DNA of 15,653 bases, taken from assembly GCA_029858755.1 (NCBI GenBank), contig JAOUEK010000006.1, positions 1 to 15,653 of the forward strand, read 5' to 3'. Made by a program: the position numbers and the translations under genes. How positions within the stretch are numbered: position 1 is the stretch's first letter; every line of letters begins with the position of its first letter. This DNA comes from Thermoleophilia bacterium (GTDB lineage: Bacteria; Actinomycetota; Thermoleophilia; Gaiellales; Gaiellaceae). This document shows, in pieces, positions 1,887 to 8,700 of this stretch. A model generated the notes under the pieces. That model was given only the letters and a program-made list of their open reading frames with translations. It was not told where the DNA came from and searched no databases.

Positions 1887-2294
1887 CTACGCGGGCCAGA
1901 TCTCGTCGGCCGTCAGCTCGACCGAGTTCCCGGCCGGGTCGCGCACGTAGAGCGAGCGGCCGCCGCGCGGCCACTCCACCTCGCGCTCGACCACGACGCC
2001 GTGCTCGAGCAGGGCATGCCGCCACTCGTCGTGCGTTCCCGGCGGGATGCGGAACGCGACGTGCCCGGTGCCGTGTGCGCCGTGGGAAGGCACGGCGCGG
2101 CTCGGCTGGCCGGAGCGTCCGGGGTGGAACACGAGCAGCACGCCGCCGTCGGGGAGACGGAACGCGGCCGACAGCTCGTCGGGCCCGTCCACGAGACGGA
2201 GCCCGAGCACGTCCTCGTAGAAGGCCTTCATCGCCTCCACGTCGTCCGCGTAGAGGACGGTCTCGTAGACGCCCGTGATCGCGCGCTCTCTCAC
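1887..2294 (-). CDS. VOC family protein (glyoxalase/bleomycin-resistance/dioxygenase fold)
   Basis: A 135-residue single-domain protein with the paired beta-alpha-beta-beta-beta pattern of the vicinal oxygen chelate superfamily: first module GVYETVLYADDVEAMKAFYE followed by DVLGLRLV; second module GHVAFRIP, then GRSLYVRDPAGNSVEL. Likely metal-ligand positions are Glu11, the His of GHVAF and the final Glu of SVEL. VOC proteins are usually dimers acting in glyoxalase, antibiotic-resistance or ring-cleavage chemistry; the substrate cannot be read here. The start is GTG at 2294, backed by GGGGAAGG just upstream on the minus strand (4 nt spacer). It is the second gene after the MDR oxidoreductase, separated by a 121-nt gap filled by repeat element copy A. 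With the repeat collapsed, this GTG would overlap the oxidoreductase stop as GTGA. Confidence 0.85.
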   Translation of the reverse strand: MRERAITGVYETVLYADDVEAMKAFYEDVLGLRLVDGPDELSAAFRLPDGGVLLVFHPGRSGQPSRAVPSHGAHGTGHVAFRIPPGTHDEWRHALLEHGVVVEREVEWPRGGRSLYVRDPAGNSVELTADEIWPA

Positions 2295-2423
2295 GACGCC
2301 TTCCCCGCAGAGCGCGGATCTGCGCGAGCAGATCCGCGCTCGCCACGATCCCTGAAGCGGCCGCCGTCGCGGCCGGTGCCTGCGATCGACGCGCGAGGGG
2401 CTGGCACAGGGCTTCTCACGACG
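2289..2423 (-). mobile_element. Putative 125-bp mobile element, copy A, with flanking direct repeats
   Basis: On the minus strand the 10-mer CGTCGTGAGA occurs twice, at 2423-2414 and 2298-2289, 125 bp apart; the match extends to 15 bp with one mismatch (2428-2414 and 2303-2289). Between them are 115 bp related to copy B at 7694-7808. The best part, 2305-2392, aligns without gaps to 7702-7789 with 76 of 88 bases identical. The upstream repeat contains the oxidoreductase stop TGA and the downstream repeat contains the VOC start GTG, so neither gene is damaged. It has no ORF of its own. Terminal inverted repeats are weak or absent. The copy-specific direct repeats are the mark of a target-site duplication; mobility itself is inferred. 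In size and position between co-transcribed genes it recalls enterobacterial ERIC elements, but I see no sequence relation. Confidence 0.7.
2310..2341 (-). ncRNA. Main hairpin of element copy A (14-bp stem, 4-nt loop)
   Basis: A perfect 14-bp inverted repeat (arms 2310-2323 and 2328-2341) closes a 4-nt loop, UCGC on the minus strand. It ends 5 nt before the GGGGAAGG of the VOC gene. A second, 7-bp GC-only hairpin lies upstream in the transcript (arms 2358-2364 and 2369-2375). Together with the conserved 20-nt stretch at 2345-2364 these form the common structure shared with copy B. It would be part of the oxidoreductase-VOC mRNA rather than a free RNA. It could act as a stability or processing signal, or affect translation of the second gene. 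Confidence 0.55.
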
Positions 2424-3429
2424 GCTTCGGGATGGAGAGCACGACCTTGCCGAACCGCTCGGGGGCGTCGAGGCGGCGGGCGGCGGCATCGATCTCCGCG
2501 AGCGGGAAGACGCTGTCGACGACGGGGCGCCACGACGCCGTCTCGACGTGCGCGAGCAGCGCGCGGTACTCCCGCGGGCTGCCCATCGTCGTCCCCACGA
2601 TCCGCCGCCACTGCCAGTAGACCTCGGAGACGTCGATCGCCGCCTCCGCGGCACCGGTGTCGCCGAAGGAGACGAGCGTGCTGCCGCGGCGCAGCGTCCG
2701 CAGCGCGCCCGCCCACGAAGCGCCGCCGTAGCTGTCGATCGCGGCGTCGAGCGGCGCTCCTGCGAGCTCGACGAGGCGCTCCGGCCAGGCCGGGTGGCGG
2801 TAGGAGACGCCGCCGGCTGCGCCGAGCGCCGCCGCACGCGCGAGCTTCTCCTCGCTGCCCGAGGTGACCCAGACCTCCGCGCCGAGTGCGGCGGCGATCT
2901 GCACGGCGAACGTCGAGACGCCGCTGCCCGCCCCCGTGATCAGCAGGCTGCGGCCGGGCGCCGCCTCCGCGCAGGTCACGACCGCGCGCCACGCGGTCAG
3001 CCCGGCGAGGCTGAGCGCCGCGGCCTCCTCCCAGCTGAGCCGTGCGGGCTTCGGGGCGACGTTCGCCGCGGGCACGACGACCTGCTCCGCGAAGGTGCCG
3101 TCGAGCGGCGAGCCGAGGATGTCGAACGCCTCGCCCGGCTCGTCCTCGCGGTCGCCCCAGCCGAGCGTGGCGTCGATCACCACCTCGTCGCCGACGGCGA
3201 CACCGTCGACGCCGCCGCCGACGGACTCGACGACGCCCGCTCCGTCCGAGCCGAGGGTGACGGGGAGCGGGTCGCTCGCGGGGTCGGTCCAGATCCACCA
3301 GTCGCGGCGATTGAGCGCCGCCGCGCGGAGCGAGACCACCACCTCGCCCGGGCCCGCGACGGGCCCGGGGAGCTGCTCGAGCGCAAACGTCGGCGGGTCT
3401 CCCGGCTCGACGAGCCGTGTGGCGATCAC
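2416..3429 (-). CDS. Medium-chain dehydrogenase/reductase, quinone-oxidoreductase / YogA-like
   Basis: A 337-residue zinc-independent-looking MDR enzyme, expected to be a soluble NAD(P)H-dependent oxidoreductase. The N-terminal GroES-like domain shows AAALNRRDWWIW (about 36-47), LGSDGAGVVESVG (59-71) and VGDEVVID (79-86); the segment WGDREDEPGEAFDILGSPLD (91-110) and GTFAEQVVVPA match alcohol-dehydrogenase-like YogA proteins. The Rossmann domain has ITGAGSGVSTFAVQIAAALG (about 164-183). The catalytic Cys/His zinc set of true alcohol dehydrogenases is not present. GTG at 3429 is chosen because VIATRLVEPGDPPTF matches the usual N-terminus, with GGAG 11 nt upstream; a longer open frame (to 3621) overlaps the divergent mqnB. 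It is the first gene of a unit with the VOC gene. The 51-bp divergent gap to mqnB must hold its promoter, but no clear -10 box was seen on this strand. Confidence 0.87.
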   Translation of the reverse strand: MIATRLVEPGDPPTFALEQLPGPVAGPGEVVVSLRAAALNRRDWWIWTDPASDPLPVTLGSDGAGVVESVGGGVDGVAVGDEVVIDATLGWGDREDEPGEAFDILGSPLDGTFAEQVVVPAANVAPKPARLSWEEAAALSLAGLTAWRAVVTCAEAAPGRSLLITGAGSGVSTFAVQIAAALGAEVWVTSGSEEKLARAAALGAAGGVSYRHPAWPERLVELAGAPLDAAIDSYGGASWAGALRTLRRGSTLVSFGDTGAAEAAIDVSEVYWQWRRIVGTTMGSPREYRALLAHVETASWRPVVDSVFPLAEIDAAARRLDAPERFGKVVLSIPKPS

Positions 3430-4051: not shown

Positions 4052-5533
4052 GTGGCCTCACGCCCCAGCGCGTCACCGGCGGGCGCCGGCCGGCCCGGGA
4101 TCCCCGCCGGCGCCTGGGCAGCGGCAGGCGGTGTGGTGGTGCTCCTCCTCGCCGTCTCCGCCCGCTACGGCTTCCACCGCGACGAGCTGTACTTCATCGT
4201 CGCCGGCCGCAACCCGGACTGGGGGTACGTCGACCAGCCGCCGTTCGTGCCGCTGCTGGCCCGGCTGGCCGAGCTGATCGCCGGCACGGGGTCGCCGGTG
4301 CCCCTCCGTGTCCTCCCCGCGCTGGCCGTGGGAGCGGTGGCTCTGCTCGCCGCCTCGATGGCATTGCGCTTCGGCGGCGGGCGCTGGGCTGCGGTGTACG
4401 CCGCGTTCGGCGTCGGCTGGGTCGGCGTCCTCCTCGGTGAGGGCCACCTGCTCAGCACCGCCGTCTTCGACTTCGCGCTCTGGACGCTCGCGCTCTGGAT
4501 GCTCGTGCGGCTGCTGGACGGCGCCAGCCCGCGAGGGTGGCTCGCGCTCGGCGCGACGATCGGCGTCGGCCTGCAGAACAAGCACACGATCGGGTTCCTC
4601 GCCGTGGCTGCGCTCGCCGGGGTGCTGCTCGGAGGCCGGCGGGGGCTGCTCCGCGGGCCCTGGCCGTGGCTCGGCGCGTCGGTCGCCACCGTCCTCGCCC
4701 TGCCGAACCTCCTCTGGCAGGCGACGAACGGATGGCCGCAGCTCGAGATGGCACGCGCCATCGCCGATCGCGGCGACGGGCCGCTCGCGTTCGTGGCGCT
4801 CCAGCCTGCGCTCCTGTCGATCGTGCTCGTCGCTCCCGCAGCGGCCGGGTGGTGGTGGCTGCTGCGGTCGGGCGAGGCGCGACGGTGGCGGCCGCTGGCC
4901 GTCGCCTTCGCGCTGCTCTTCGTCACCTTCCTCGCCGTCGGGGGCAAGGCGTACTACCTCGCCCCGATGTACTCGTGCCTGATCGCTGCAGGCGCCACGC
5001 GCGTCGAGCGCCTGGGGCGGGCACCGCGGCGGCTGACCGCGGGCGCCACGGCGCTCGGCCTCGCGTTCGGGCTGTTCGTCGCCCTGCCGCTGCTGCCGGT
5101 GCGCTCGATGTCGGCGCTGGATGCGACGGGCGAGCTCGCCGAGACCGTCGGCTGGCCCGACTTGATCGCGCAGGTCGGAGGCGTCCTCGACCAGATCCCC
5201 GCCGCCGACCGCGCGGACGCCGTCGTCTTCACCGGCTCGTACGGGGAGGCCGGGGCAGTCGACGTGCTCGGGCCCGGCGGCGACCTGCCGCCCGCGTTCA
5301 GCGGGCACAACTCCTACTGGTCGTGGGGGCCGCCCGAGCGACACGGGCCGGTGATCGGCGTCGGAGCGGTGGGCGACGTGCTCGCCGCCATCTGCCCCTC
5401 CCTCCAGCGGTGGGGGAAGATCGCGAACGCGGACGGCGTGGAGAACGAGGAGGCCGGCCTTCCGCTCTATCTCTGCCTCGCCCCTAGCCGGCAGCTCGCC
5501 GACATCTGGGTCGACGTGCGCCACTTCAACTGA
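4052..5533 (+). CDS. GT39-type (PMT/ArnT-like) integral membrane glycosyltransferase
   Basis: A 493-residue polytopic membrane protein of the GT-C fold. These enzymes move sugars from polyprenyl-phosphate donors on the outer face of the membrane. After the first helix (about 20-37) the first outer loop has the acidic pair in FHRDELYFI (41-49), the expected catalytic site, followed by GRNPDWGYVDQPPFVPLLAR (52-71), a hallmark of PMT_2-type proteins. About ten hydrophobic helices follow to about residue 350. The C-terminal soluble part (from about 365) includes ALPLLPVRSM and GSYGEAGAVDVLG and probably faces outside. GTG at 4052, right after the mqnB stop (TGA C GTG), is the first start that avoids mqnB; no strong ribosome site is seen, so translation may rely on coupling. 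Acceptor and donor are unknown. A second GT39-type gene lies at 10207-11844. Confidence 0.85.
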   Translation: MASRPSASPAGAGRPGIPAGAWAAAGGVVVLLLAVSARYGFHRDELYFIVAGRNPDWGYVDQPPFVPLLARLAELIAGTGSPVPLRVLPALAVGAVALLAASMALRFGGGRWAAVYAAFGVGWVGVLLGEGHLLSTAVFDFALWTLALWMLVRLLDGASPRGWLALGATIGVGLQNKHTIGFLAVAALAGVLLGGRRGLLRGPWPWLGASVATVLALPNLLWQATNGWPQLEMARAIADRGDGPLAFVALQPALLSIVLVAPAAAGWWWLLRSGEARRWRPLAVAFALLFVTFLAVGGKAYYLAPMYSCLIAAGATRVERLGRAPRRLTAGATALGLAFGLFVALPLLPVRSMSALDATGELAETVGWPDLIAQVGGVLDQIPAADRADAVVFTGSYGEAGAVDVLGPGGDLPPAFSGHNSYWSWGPPERHGPVIGVGAVGDVLAAICPSLQRWGKIANADGVENEEAGLPLYLCLAPSRQLADIWVDVRHFN

Positions 5534-5537
5534 GGCC

Positions 5538-5555
5538 GCGGCGCGATCGCGCCGC
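5538..5555. terminator. 18-bp perfect palindrome after the GT39 gene
   Basis: GCGGCGCGATCGCGCCGC lies 4 nt after the stop codon at 5531-5533. As RNA it folds to a 7-bp stem with a GAUC loop; there is no T-run. It may be the transcription end of the mqnB-GT39 unit. As DNA it could instead be a dimer-protein binding site just upstream of the next promoter (TACGGT at 5577). The sequence alone cannot separate these. Confidence 0.35.
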
Positions 5556-5576
5556 CGGCCGGACGCTCGCTCACAG

Positions 5577-5582
5577 TACGGT
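5577..5582 (+). promoter_or_regulatory. TACGGT box, likely leaderless promoter
   Basis: A TAnnnT box ends 6 nt before the ATG at 5589, and no Shine-Dalgarno sequence intervenes. This suits a leaderless start for the membrane-protein gene. Confidence 0.42.
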
Positions 5583-5588
5583 TCCGCG

Positions 5589-6311
5589 ATGCCTCGACCG
5601 CGGTATCCGAAGGGGAGCGGTCCGCGCCCGCCCGCGCTCCCGCCCGCGACGCAGACGGTCGGCCAGCTCGTCGCCGAGACGCTCCGGCTGTACGGGAGCC
5701 GCTTCTTCGCGGCGCTCCCCGTCGGCCTGCCGCTCGCCGTCGCCGACGAGTTCGCGCTCGACCTCTCCACGGTCGGCCGGGTGCTGGTGCTCGCCGCCGC
5801 CGCGCCCTTCCTCACCGCTGCGTACGTGGTCGCGTGCGCGATCGTCTTCGACATGCGCCCCGGCGCCCGGGCGTGGGCGGCGGCAATGGTCACCGGGACG
5901 CTCGCCTTCCTGCCTGCAGCGGCCGTGTTCCCCTGGTTCGCGCTCGCAGCCGTCGCGTGGCTCGCGCTCGTCGGGCACGTCGTGCCTGCAGCCGTCAAGG
6001 AGGGCCTCGCGCCGGTGCCGGCTCTCCGGCGGGCGGTCGAGGTGGCCCGCGCCGACTACGTCCATGCCGCCGGCGGGCTGGCGACGCTCGTGCTCGTCTT
6101 CGGCCTCACGCGCCTGCTCCTCGGGCTGCTGCTCCGCGAGCAGGCGGACAACACGATCCGCGTCTCGATCTTCCTCGCCGACGTCGTCCTGGCGCCGATC
6201 CTCTTCCTCGGCGGCGCGCTCATCTACCTCAACCTCGCCGCCCGCGTCGGCGTCGACCGGGAAGAGCGCCGACGCACCCGTCGCGGCTCGCCGGGGCGCA
6301 TGGCCGAGTAG
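5589..6311 (+). CDS. Integral membrane protein of unknown function
   Basis: A 240-residue protein with a proline/arginine-rich N-terminus (MPRPRYPKGSGPRPP), an amphipathic segment (TVGQLVAETLRLYGSRFFAA, about 22-41) and then about five to six hydrophobic helices, ending in a basic tail. The pattern of an N-terminal 'VGQLVAETLRLYGSRF' helix, paired helices and an internal VPAAVKEGLAPVPALRRAVE segment resembles bacterial membrane proteins related to the glycerophosphodiester-phosphodiesterase membrane domain/YciC group, but this is a weak resemblance. I do not recognise a specific function. The ATG at 5589 follows a TACGGT box. Its TAG stop (6309-6311) is the start of a TAGGCT box that may serve the next gene. 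Confidence 0.75.
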   Translation: MPRPRYPKGSGPRPPALPPATQTVGQLVAETLRLYGSRFFAALPVGLPLAVADEFALDLSTVGRVLVLAAAAPFLTAAYVVACAIVFDMRPGARAWAAAMVTGTLAFLPAAAVFPWFALAAVAWLALVGHVVPAAVKEGLAPVPALRRAVEVARADYVHAAGGLATLVLVFGLTRLLLGLLLREQADNTIRVSIFLADVVLAPILFLGGALIYLNLAARVGVDREERRRTRRGSPGRMAE

Positions 6312-6638: not shown

Positions 6639-7691
6639 CTAGGAGCCCAGCCGGAAGCCGGTCGGCGTGGCAGTCACCTCGAGCGGGCTCGTCGGCAAGC
6701 CCGGCGCGGGCTCGGTCGCGTTGTAGCCTCCCGGGGCGACGTCGTTCGGCGTGCCCGGGTGGAAGAGCGACGCGAGCAGCTGGATCTGGCCGCGCCCGAC
6801 TCCGAGCTCGAACTGGCCGCCGCCGTAGGCGGCGATACCGTGCGCCTCGCAGTGCTCGTAGGCGGCGAACAGTCGCTCCACCGAGCCGAACCGCGACGGC
6901 TTCACGTTCACCGTGGTCGGCGGCCAGCGCAGTGCCTCGATGTCCGCGACCGAGTGGATGATCGCGTCCCATGTGACCCGGTCGGCCACGGGCTCGAGCA
7001 GCGCCTCCGTCTCGGGCGTCAGCGCCGGGTCCTCGAGCCACGCCTTCGGGAACGCCTCGATCACGCGCCGGTAGAGGTCCGGGTCGGCCGGGTTGTCGAC
7101 GGTCGTGCCCGAGTACTGGCCCTTGAGGTCGATCGAGTCGACGCAGCCGAGCTCGCGGAGCTCGTCGAAGATCGCGTCGGTCCACTCGGGCCGCGCGTCG
7201 AGCTTGAAGCGGAGGCCGGGGTAGAGGTCGAGGAAGCCTCGCAGGCGTGCTGTGCTCGGCGGCTCGCCGAGCCCGCCCGACGCCACGAACGTCACCGGCT
7301 GTGCGCGGCGGCCCACCGCGTCGCCCAGCGAGCGGCCGGCCTGGCGCAGCGCGAGGTCGAGCGCCGCGCTCTCGAAGGCCCAGCGGCGGTAGTCGAGGTA
7401 GGCGTGCCGCTCGGGCTCCTCCTCGAACAGGGGCAGCGTGGCGAGATGCTGCGAGAACGAGTGCAGGGTCCAGTCTCCCTGCAGCGGCAGCACCGGCCCC
7501 CGTGCCTGCTGCGCGTCGTGGAGCTCGCCGTCGTAGGTGACGTCCTCGCCGTGGCCCTCCTCGCCGCCGCCGACGAGGCGCACGACGGTCGTCTTGCGCG
7601 TGAACTCCGGGCGAACGACCTGCTGGAGGCCGTCCAGCGCGTAGCGCTCGACGAGGAGCGGCAGGTCGCGGACGGAGTCGTAGAGGCTCAC
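6639..7691 (-). CDS. Enolase-superfamily enzyme (MLE/OSBS-like), substrate unknown
   Basis: A 350-residue protein with the two-part enolase-superfamily plan: an N-terminal capping domain (YALDGLQ..., TRKTTVVRLVGGGEEGHGED) and a barrel with ordered catalytic positions: Lys163 in RFKLDA, Asp188 in VDSIDLKGQY, Glu220 in AWLEDP, Asp242 in VTWDAIIHS and Lys264 in VNVKPSRFGS. This is the muconate-lactonizing subgroup pattern of lysines and Mg ligands on successive strands, for enolate-forming chemistry on carboxylates (racemisation, elimination, cycloisomerisation). The end GGGQFELGVGRGQIQLLASL is well marked. It could be an o-succinylbenzoate-synthase relative, but the putative MqnB suggests menaquinone is made by the futalosine route, so OSBS is unlikely. 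GTG at 7691 has GGAGG 4 nt upstream. It follows psuG, with element copy B filling the 121-nt gap; a joint role with PsuG is possible but unproven. Confidence 0.8.
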   Translation of the reverse strand: MSLYDSVRDLPLLVERYALDGLQQVVRPEFTRKTTVVRLVGGGEEGHGEDVTYDGELHDAQQARGPVLPLQGDWTLHSFSQHLATLPLFEEEPERHAYLDYRRWAFESAALDLALRQAGRSLGDAVGRRAQPVTFVASGGLGEPPSTARLRGFLDLYPGLRFKLDARPEWTDAIFDELRELGCVDSIDLKGQYSGTTVDNPADPDLYRRVIEAFPKAWLEDPALTPETEALLEPVADRVTWDAIIHSVADIEALRWPPTTVNVKPSRFGSVERLFAAYEHCEAHGIAAYGGGQFELGVGRGQIQLLASLFHPGTPNDVAPGGYNATEPAPGLPTSPLEVTATPTGFRLGS

Positions 7692-7818
7692 AGTGCCTCC
7701 GCCGCAGAGCACGAATCTGCGAACGCAGATCCGTGCCCGCGACGATCCCTGAAGCGGCCGCGGTCGCGGCCGCTGCCGGCGCTCGACGCAGGAAGGGTCG
7801 ACGGGGGAAGGCTCACAG
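7684..7818 (-). mobile_element. Putative 125-bp mobile element, copy B, with flanking direct repeats
   Basis: On the minus strand CTGTGAGCCT occurs at 7818-7809 and at 7693-7684, 125 bp apart; the match extends to 14 of 16 bases. The enclosed 115 bp carry the segment 7702-7789 that aligns without gaps to copy A (76 of 88 identical). The upstream repeat holds the psuG stop TGA and the downstream one holds the GTG of the enolase-superfamily gene. The repeat sequence differs from that of copy A except for the shared GTGAG, as expected for two independent insertions at similar targets. The gap between stop and start is 121 nt, exactly as in copy A. Confidence 0.7.
7707..7738 (-). ncRNA. Main hairpin of element copy B
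   Basis: This is the same structure as at 2310-2341, with arms 7707-7720 and 7725-7738 and loop GUUC. Compared with copy A one G-C pair has become A-U (7711 with 7734), and two single-sided changes (at 7714 and 7737) give G-U wobbles on the minus strand, while on the plus strand they would be A-C mismatches. The second hairpin (arms 7753-7761 and 7766-7774, loop at 7762-7765) is 9 bp here. It would lie in the psuG-enolase mRNA just before the GGAGG ribosome site. Confidence 0.55.
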
Positions 7819-8700
7819 CGCCGCGTACGCTACCGCCACGTCGGCGGCCAGCCGTGCGTTGGCGACGATCAGGTCCCGGTTGACCCGCAGCGTCTCGCCG
7901 CCCGTGCGCTCGTGAAGGGCCGCAAGCACGAACGGGGTCACCGCCTGTCCTGTGATCCCGCGCGTGGCGGCGTCGAGCACGGCCTGCTCGAGCAACGGCT
8001 CCACTTCGAGGCTCTCCGCGGGCGGGCGTCCGACGAGCAGGCCGCCACCGCCGAGCCGCCAGTGGGACACCGCGATGCGCGCCGCCTCGTCAGCGGCCTC
8101 CACCCTCGTCGACACGGGTGGCCCGCCCTCCGCCGCGTAGAAGAGCGGCAGAGTGTCGGTACGCCAGCCGAGCGTGGGCACGCCGAGCGTCTCCAGCAGC
8201 TCCGCGGTGGCTGGCACGTCGAGCAGCGACTTCACCCCCGAGGAGACGACGACGGCCGGAATGCGCGCGAGGGCGCCGAGGTCGGCGGAGACGTCGGGCG
8301 GGTCCGGGAAGCCGCGGTGCACGCCACCGAGGCCGCCGGTGCCCATGAAGCGGATGCCGACGGTGGCCGCGACCGCGAGCGTGCCCCCGACGGTGGTCGC
8401 GCCGACGGCTCCCTGCACGGCGCAGGCGGCGAGGTCGCGGGGCCCGAGCTTGCGCGCCTCCGGCGTGAAGCGCTCGAGGTCGGCGGCGGCGAGGCCCACC
8501 TGGACGCGCCCGTCGAGCACGCCGATCGTCGCGGGTATCGCGCCCGCCTCCCGGACGGCTGCCTCGCTCGCGAGGCCCACCGCGACGCCGTCGGGCGCCG
8601 GGAAGCCGTGCGCGATCAGAGTCGTCTCGAGCGCGACGACCGGGCGCTCCTCCCCGAGCGCCACCCGCACTTCGTCCGAGACCGCGACGGGACCCTGCAC
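7813..8700 (-). CDS. psuG: Pseudouridine-5'-phosphate glycosidase
   Basis: PsuG reversibly splits pseudouridine 5'-phosphate into uracil and ribose 5-phosphate in pseudouridine salvage; it is a cytoplasmic trimer that needs a divalent metal. The 295-residue protein has the normal family length and blocks: PVVALETTLIAHGFPAP (20-36, catalytic Glu25), ATIGVLDGRVQVGL, ACAVQGAVGATTVGGTLAVA, FMGTGGLGGVHRG, DVSADLGALARIPAVVVSSG followed by VKSLLD (active-site Asp and Lys region), LGWRTDTLPLFY, and the tail ITGQAVTPFVLAALHERTGG. GTG at 8700 is 6 nt from a minus-strand TAGGCT box with no Shine-Dalgarno site, so it is probably leaderless. It is the first gene before the enolase-superfamily gene. A PfkB kinase that could be PsuK lies beyond the divergent gene 8758-9210. 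Confidence 0.95.
   Translation of the reverse strand: MQGPVAVSDEVRVALGEERPVVALETTLIAHGFPAPDGVAVGLASEAAVREAGAIPATIGVLDGRVQVGLAAADLERFTPEARKLGPRDLAACAVQGAVGATTVGGTLAVAATVGIRFMGTGGLGGVHRGFPDPPDVSADLGALARIPAVVVSSGVKSLLDVPATAELLETLGVPTLGWRTDTLPLFYAAEGGPPVSTRVEAADEAARIAVSHWRLGGGGLLVGRPPAESLEVEPLLEQAVLDAATRGITGQAVTPFVLAALHERTGGETLRVNRDLIVANARLAADVAVAYAAL

Follow-up and report, generated by a model that had tools for sequence, protein, structure and literature searches.

The window, by which we mean the whole stretch of 15,653 nucleotides analysed here, carries on its minus strand a gene for an MDR-type zinc-binding dehydrogenase (2416..3429; Pfam PF08240 and PF00107, ADH_N/ADH_zinc_N), followed by a gene of VOC/glyoxalase type (1887..2294; PF00903, Glyoxalase). 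The first-pass annotation pointed out a 10-mer, CGTCGTGAGA, at both ends of the gap between these genes, and it is indeed there, at 2289-2298(-) and 2414-2423(-), 125 bp from start to start and nowhere else in the window. The chance expectation is 0.13, and two copies were reached in none of 200 shuffles. Extended by eye into the flank, the repeat becomes 15 bp with one mismatch, GAAG[C/G]CGTCGTGAGA, with its left copy at 2414..2428 and its right copy at 2289..2303 (both on the minus strand). It also contains, as had been proposed, both the MDR stop and the VOC start.

The two copies bound a unit of 129 nt from GTGA to GTGA (copy A, 2291..2419, minus strand), which matches the covariance model R1, built from 22 copies, with 129.1 bits. 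In the left GTGA (2416..2419, minus strand) TGA is the stop of the MDR gene and GTG is the start of a mini-frame; in the right one (2291..2294, minus strand) TGA is the stop of the mini-frame and GTG the start of the VOC gene. The mini-frame, of 42 residues (VRSPVPAPRASIAGTGRDGGRFRDRGERGSARADPRSAGKAS*; 2291..2419, minus strand), thus closes exactly on the downstream start. Within the unit we find two hairpins on the same strand. Hairpin 1, GGCCGC..GCGGCC (2359..2374), comes out of folding and of the 22-copy alignment, where it is nearly invariant; hairpin 2 (2307..2343), seen in folding and in covariation over 22 copies, has a long stem of variable sequence in which the pairing is kept. A purine-rich end, GGGGAAGG (2299..2306, minus strand), stands at the same position in other copies and may, judging from its sequence, act as a Shine-Dalgarno stretch for the downstream gene.

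The interior is common to a second copy in the window, copy B, as the annotation had also noticed. Copies A and B are 82% identical along 111 nt, a length that no other direct repeat listed for the window exceeds, and we place the bounds of copy B at 7688..7816 (minus strand), compared with the earlier 7694-7808. It is again a GTGA-to-GTGA unit with 125-bp spacing (120.5 bits), its two ends have the flank CTGTGAGCCT in common (by eye), and it lies between an upstream gene of Indigoidine_A type (7813-8700, by Pfam) and a downstream gene of 350 residues without a Pfam match (6639-7691, minus strand). A further stretch of the window, 5478-5597(-), matches the model weakly (19 bits, E 0.0005) and is perhaps a decayed copy.

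A dispersed family with a phased frame

The proposal of a short dispersed repeat of mobile type gains support from the host genome, an assembly of 2.7 Mb in 564 contigs that is 80% complete. A blastn search with the element gave 45 matches there, and R1 gave 72, of which five are the palindrome on the opposite strand, so that 67 are left. We judge 38 of these, at 27 sites between co-directional genes, to be coupled to their neighbours, while 29 were not counted as coupled. In the direction of the genes the unit reads [DTGA]-GAC..CCTGTGTC..-hairpin 1-CTTCAGGGATCGTCGCGA-hairpin 2-CTGCGGGGGAGG..-[DTGA]. At all 27 sites, which were selected for showing coupled ends, the right end is the start of a downstream frame of at least 60 codons (GTGC at C562, DTGA at the other 26), and at 24 of them the left DTGA is the stop of an upstream frame of at least 60 codons; at C47 the stop lies 18 bp earlier, and C12 and C339 run into contig ends. 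Some sites hold tandem units, for example three at C537 and two each at C344, C546 and C486. The last of these contigs carries a nuo operon (L209; names given by sequence) with four copies, at nuoB-nuoC, nuoC-nuoD (two in tandem) and nuoF-nuoG.

The distance from DTGA to DTGA is 3n-1 in 31 of 32 frames. The 31 comprise 22 sites read directly and nine frames within four arrays; the exception is C562, whose frame ends at a TAG just before a GTG. With such a distance a short frame opens on the stop of one gene and closes on the start of the next. The standard unit gives a frame of 41-42 codons that overlaps both neighbour genes by four bases, and the description of the element as non-coding is not supported. 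The distances take 15 distinct values, from 104 to 311, the longest spanning two or three repeats in one frame. If each site is counted once, without splitting the arrays, 3n-1 holds for 22 of 27 where one third would be expected (p=4e-7), which indicates that the phase is kept through changes of length between copies.

Since the 27 sites had been picked for their coupled ends, we also ran a strict automatic test, which requires two frames, each of 60 codons or more, with a pair of DTGA in phase between them. It is passed by 19 of the 38 single matches in the 27 sites, by one of the 29 others and by 38 of 3217 control windows. Many of the misses are units within arrays, contig ends, or hand-chosen offsets; the DTGA was chosen by hand at four sites, with offsets from the model end of -39 (C156), -12 (C529), -19 (C486BC) and +18 (C440). 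The one that passes among the 29, C529:14960-15088 (L101; 36.8 bits), has GTGA..ATGA in phase with a spacing of 107 and is possibly a 28th coupled site, kept here outside the 27.

That 31 of 32 frames run open from a start to a stop could also mean a small protein gene that spreads thanks to a useful peptide. In our opinion this is extremely unlikely. In a set of 12 equally long units, the differences fall evenly on codon positions 1, 2 and 3 (0.40, 0.40, 0.41). By region the values are uneven: 0.41, 0.53 and 0.50 in the head, 0.42, 0.32 and 0.22 in hairpin 1, 0.37, 0.30 and 0.50 in hairpin 2. We do not take it as a sign that the peptide is under selection, because pairing constrains the stems; the greater third-position variation in hairpin 2, a point in favour of a peptide, leaves room for such selection in that region. 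At C47, C339 and part of C549 the core is read in a shifted frame (by eye) that still closes on the right DTGA with 3n-1 kept, and the protein collection, searched with a hand-made consensus peptide, gave no candidate. What is kept would seem to be the coupling, not the peptide.

Flanks, element-free junctions and hairpins

The annotation took the flanking repeat for a target-site duplication. In that case other copies should have flanks of their own that agree with each other, and as a set they do. Left and right flanks were compared at 25 of the 27 sites, leaving aside C546 and C344, where the left flank is itself a preceding copy. From position -7 to the first base of DTGA the two flanks agree 103 times against 78.0 expected (sd 5.9; permutation p=0.0001), and the A/G of the left and right DTGA is the same in 21 of 24 (Fisher p=0.0013). 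There is no excess of agreement after DTGA (p=0.94), and from -12 to -8 agreement is below expectation (p=0.99). Target duplications that differed in length and have since decayed would leave such a pattern. The length is indeed variable: a copy in the congener G005, with a spacing of 146 (3n-1), is flanked around DTGA by a repeat of 20 bp that has a single mismatch (by eye), and at gatA-gatB of the host, which reads ATGA..insert..ATGA, only the ATGA looks duplicated.

We looked for empty sites in conserved operons in place of the MDR-VOC junction, because the dehydrogenase has many paralogues in relatives, mostly of modest identity (57% or less outside the window's own copy). Orthologous junctions without the element are found. 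At gatA-gatB it is absent in all 13 readable relatives, where the second gene follows the stop within a few bases, with ATGA or GTGA at 10 of the 13 junctions; 19 relatives were read of 34 with a gatB match, and six of the 19 were without a start motif. It is absent from nuoF-nuoG in 8 of 8 relatives, with a bare ATGA in G002, G005, G006 and G010, a different repeat in G003 and G004 and other junctions in G001 and G008, and likewise from nuoB-nuoC in 8 of 8. All 18 relatives read at nuoC-nuoD (of 33 with a nuoD match) are without it too, a weak test since 15 of the 18 use TAG or TAA there. There is no element at tilS-hpt in the 11 relatives read (of 29 with an hpt match), nor at pdhA-pdhB in the one relative, and the junctions are varied at both places. 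Scanned with R1, the 57 relative loci around six junctions gave no full unit, the sole match being a 28-bp stem, found on both strands, in L210. Other inserts, of roughly 170 bp, are seen at nuoC-nuoD in L122 and L124 (G008 and G007, two other genera).

The family is therefore not a set of junctions shared by every relative, as it would be had the sites never been empty. The same observations bear on the idea of old spacers kept alike through gene conversion. The copies are similar and at times tandem, as that idea would have it; since congeners have overlapping junctions without the element at gatA-gatB, nuoF-nuoG and nuoB-nuoC, and since the flanks are specific to each copy, we consider it hardly credible.

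The hairpins raise a different question. In hairpin 2, 93% of the cells are paired, and two-sided changes occur at nine of 20 pairs. Both helices together have 38 two-sided cells compared with 12.7 in shuffles and at most 12 in slid controls; the pairs were derived from the same copies that were tested, and related copies can exceed shuffles. Hairpin 1 is neutral on this point because it hardly varies. A covarying hairpin directly 5' of a start codon is what one would expect of a cis-acting structured RNA, a leader or attenuator controlling the downstream gene. The genes 3' of the element, on the contrary, look unrelated by eye (nuoD, nuoG, gatB, grpE, sufU, purH, azlD, pdhB, hpt); the element sits between operon genes, sometimes in tandem, it is absent from the corresponding junctions of the relatives read, and Rfam at gathering scores has no match in the whole window. 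Thus such a regulatory role is very unlikely in our judgement.

Counting the host genome, R1 has a match in 9 of 61 genomes of relatives (at E 0.001), in 16 of 299 genomes of the class (at 1e-5), all of one family, and in 4 of 396 genomes of the phylum, the same family accounting for three and a weak single match elsewhere (E 8e-6) for the fourth; once a scan covers more than 40 genomes its filters are stricter, and weak matches are lost. Nearly all matches fall in a single bacterial family, which probably belongs to class Thermoleophilia, given that the best named relative of the host GatB is from a Thermoleophilia MAG (67%). Among the copies read in other genomes (15 and 20, some of them the same), coupling looks clear only in G005 and in G024, which has three units 125 apart; in G104 (L354) a spacing of 140 is counted from a TAG stop, and coupling is uncertain. 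Exact pattern scans of the genome-contig and viral-contig collections and a blastn search of the plasmid collection returned no match.

Comparison with MIRUs and REP-type palindromes

MIRUs, the mycobacterial interspersed repetitive units reportedly described by Supply et al. in 1997, are widely used for typing, and we know of no account of how they spread. They are the closest parallel to our element. According to Brown and Wade 2025 (PMC12548453), who cite Supply 1997, MIRUs seem to be mobile; start codons are where they insert, and the frame that comes with them is coupled at -4 nt. The repeat units of MIRU04 are given as 77 and 53 bp in PMC2453075, and both are 3n-1 by simple arithmetic. 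In PMC2734929 the rnc-fpg1 gap measures 279-358 bp within the M. tuberculosis complex, and 6-54 bp in the other mycobacteria shown there; one stem-loop family is listed with MIRU repeats in PMC2267715. Judged by these descriptions, our element is like a MIRU in being a short dispersed repeat of mobile type, here at the DTGA stop/start overlap of co-directional genes at 27 sites; in its internal frame, which overlaps both neighbours with -4 coupling and is 3n-1 in 31 of 32 frames; and in its tandem copies at some sites. The opinion that it matches no nameable family is therefore not supported, since site, phase and tandem habit are as described for MIRUs (PMC12548453), the likeness being one of description. 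A search of a literature collection returned no report of such elements outside mycobacteria, which is not proof of absence.

The differences also deserve attention. The host probably belongs to another class of Actinomycetota, and the standard unit is longer. The covarying long stem of the unit, and a related uncoupled form in the same genome, may be further differences. This uncoupled form is what most of the 29 other host matches represent: mostly the core only, roughly positions 47-125 of the model, in intergenic stretches of the ordinary kind; at least one adjoins a tRNA-like sequence (by eye). C501, one of the 29, stands at a contig start, where coupling is not judgeable. It is in their ends that the two forms differ, and the coupled one may thus be a core palindrome that has gained additional ends.

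Another palindromic repeat, GTCCGACT..AGTCGGAC, is present in the window at 1734-1752 and elsewhere (L203, L208, L391-L427), with 9 copies in the host, 61 in G003, 56 in G004 and none in four congeners. In the 43 clusters read, DTGA stands on both sides in five, and three are in-phase 3n-1 coupled inserts, one of them at the same nuoF-nuoG junction. With only 3 of 43 clusters closing in phase, we rejected coupling as a rule for this palindrome.

The existence of a bare core invites the most serious competing reading, namely that we are dealing with an ordinary palindrome of REP/BIME type moved by a Y1 (RAYT/IS200-like) transposase, and that DTGA sites are simply where insertions survive. REP/BIME repeats, GTAG- and CGTC-tagged in PMC3733652, are likewise stem-loop repeats with a tetranucleotide beside the stem and intergenic copies, and beside the stem of our element we read CGTC, TGTC, CCTC or CTTC (by eye). 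Unlike them, as they are described there, the element has a coupled frame, an operon-fixed orientation at 27 sites, a flanking duplication and a 129-nt unit, and no REPtron was seen. The same core recurs in the 29 other matches, and the host genome has one Y1_Tnp gene; on its contig, on the other hand, the best match to the element (11.2 bits, E 0.078) is not convincing, and Y1_Tnp scores above the cut-off in 24 of 37 genomes, in many of which the R1 scan of relatives gave no match. IS200/605 insertion is not known to leave flanking duplications, and an in-phase DTGA pair is rare in the 29 other matches (the one at C529:14960, spacing 107). We regard this reading as possible, yet rather doubtful. 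The element also resembles a MITE in being short, apparently non-autonomous and flanked by a duplication of variable length; it differs in that no terminal inverted repeats are seen at its ends (by eye, in the alignment) and no parent transposon was found.

How the element may spread and what it means

In our opinion the element is probably a short mobile mini-cistron of MIRU type. Against this may be held that 29 of the 67 matches were not counted as coupled, most of them being core only, and that terminal inverted repeats are not seen. Other points against it are the flanks, which show no excess agreement after DTGA or from -12 to -8, the greater third-position variation in hairpin 2, the incomplete host assembly, and the selection of the 27 sites by their coupled ends. 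We propose that a two-hairpin repeat, of about 125 bp as a standard, inserts at the four-base DTGA overlap of coupled genes and duplicates its target, typically DTGA with some preceding bases. With an insert of 3n-1 the upstream gene would keep its own TGA, and the same four bases would start a short frame that ends on the second DTGA, where the downstream gene begins. A ribosome that has finished the upstream gene could then re-initiate, read the insert, and re-initiate again; the mini-frame is presumably translated. The purine-rich 3' end of the element, a few bases before the restored start, may help this re-initiation; at least four consecutive letters of AAGGAGGTG are found in 17 of 29 listed ends, and the likeness is weaker in the rest.

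Movement would occur by a transposition-like process with the enzyme supplied in trans; no transposase was found adjoining the element. The coupling itself is presumably the selected trait. A broader thought is that coupling overlaps are a general niche for small repeats, which would have arisen at least twice in Actinomycetota, where a 3n-1 frame and a ribosome-binding stretch in the ends would turn an intergenic palindrome into a low-cost operon insert. On this view the chemistry might be directed at the stop/start region while an operon is being translated or transcribed, or at the mRNA of that operon. We find this improbable, though worth stating.

A second family with a MIRU-like site and phase, with an uncoupled form and with empty junctions in congeners, apparently in non-pathogens, offers a comparative system for studying how elements of this kind reach DTGA sites and whether selection acts on coupling. 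It also means that insertions can come to lie between the genes of core-function operons (nuo, gat, dnaK-grpE, suf).
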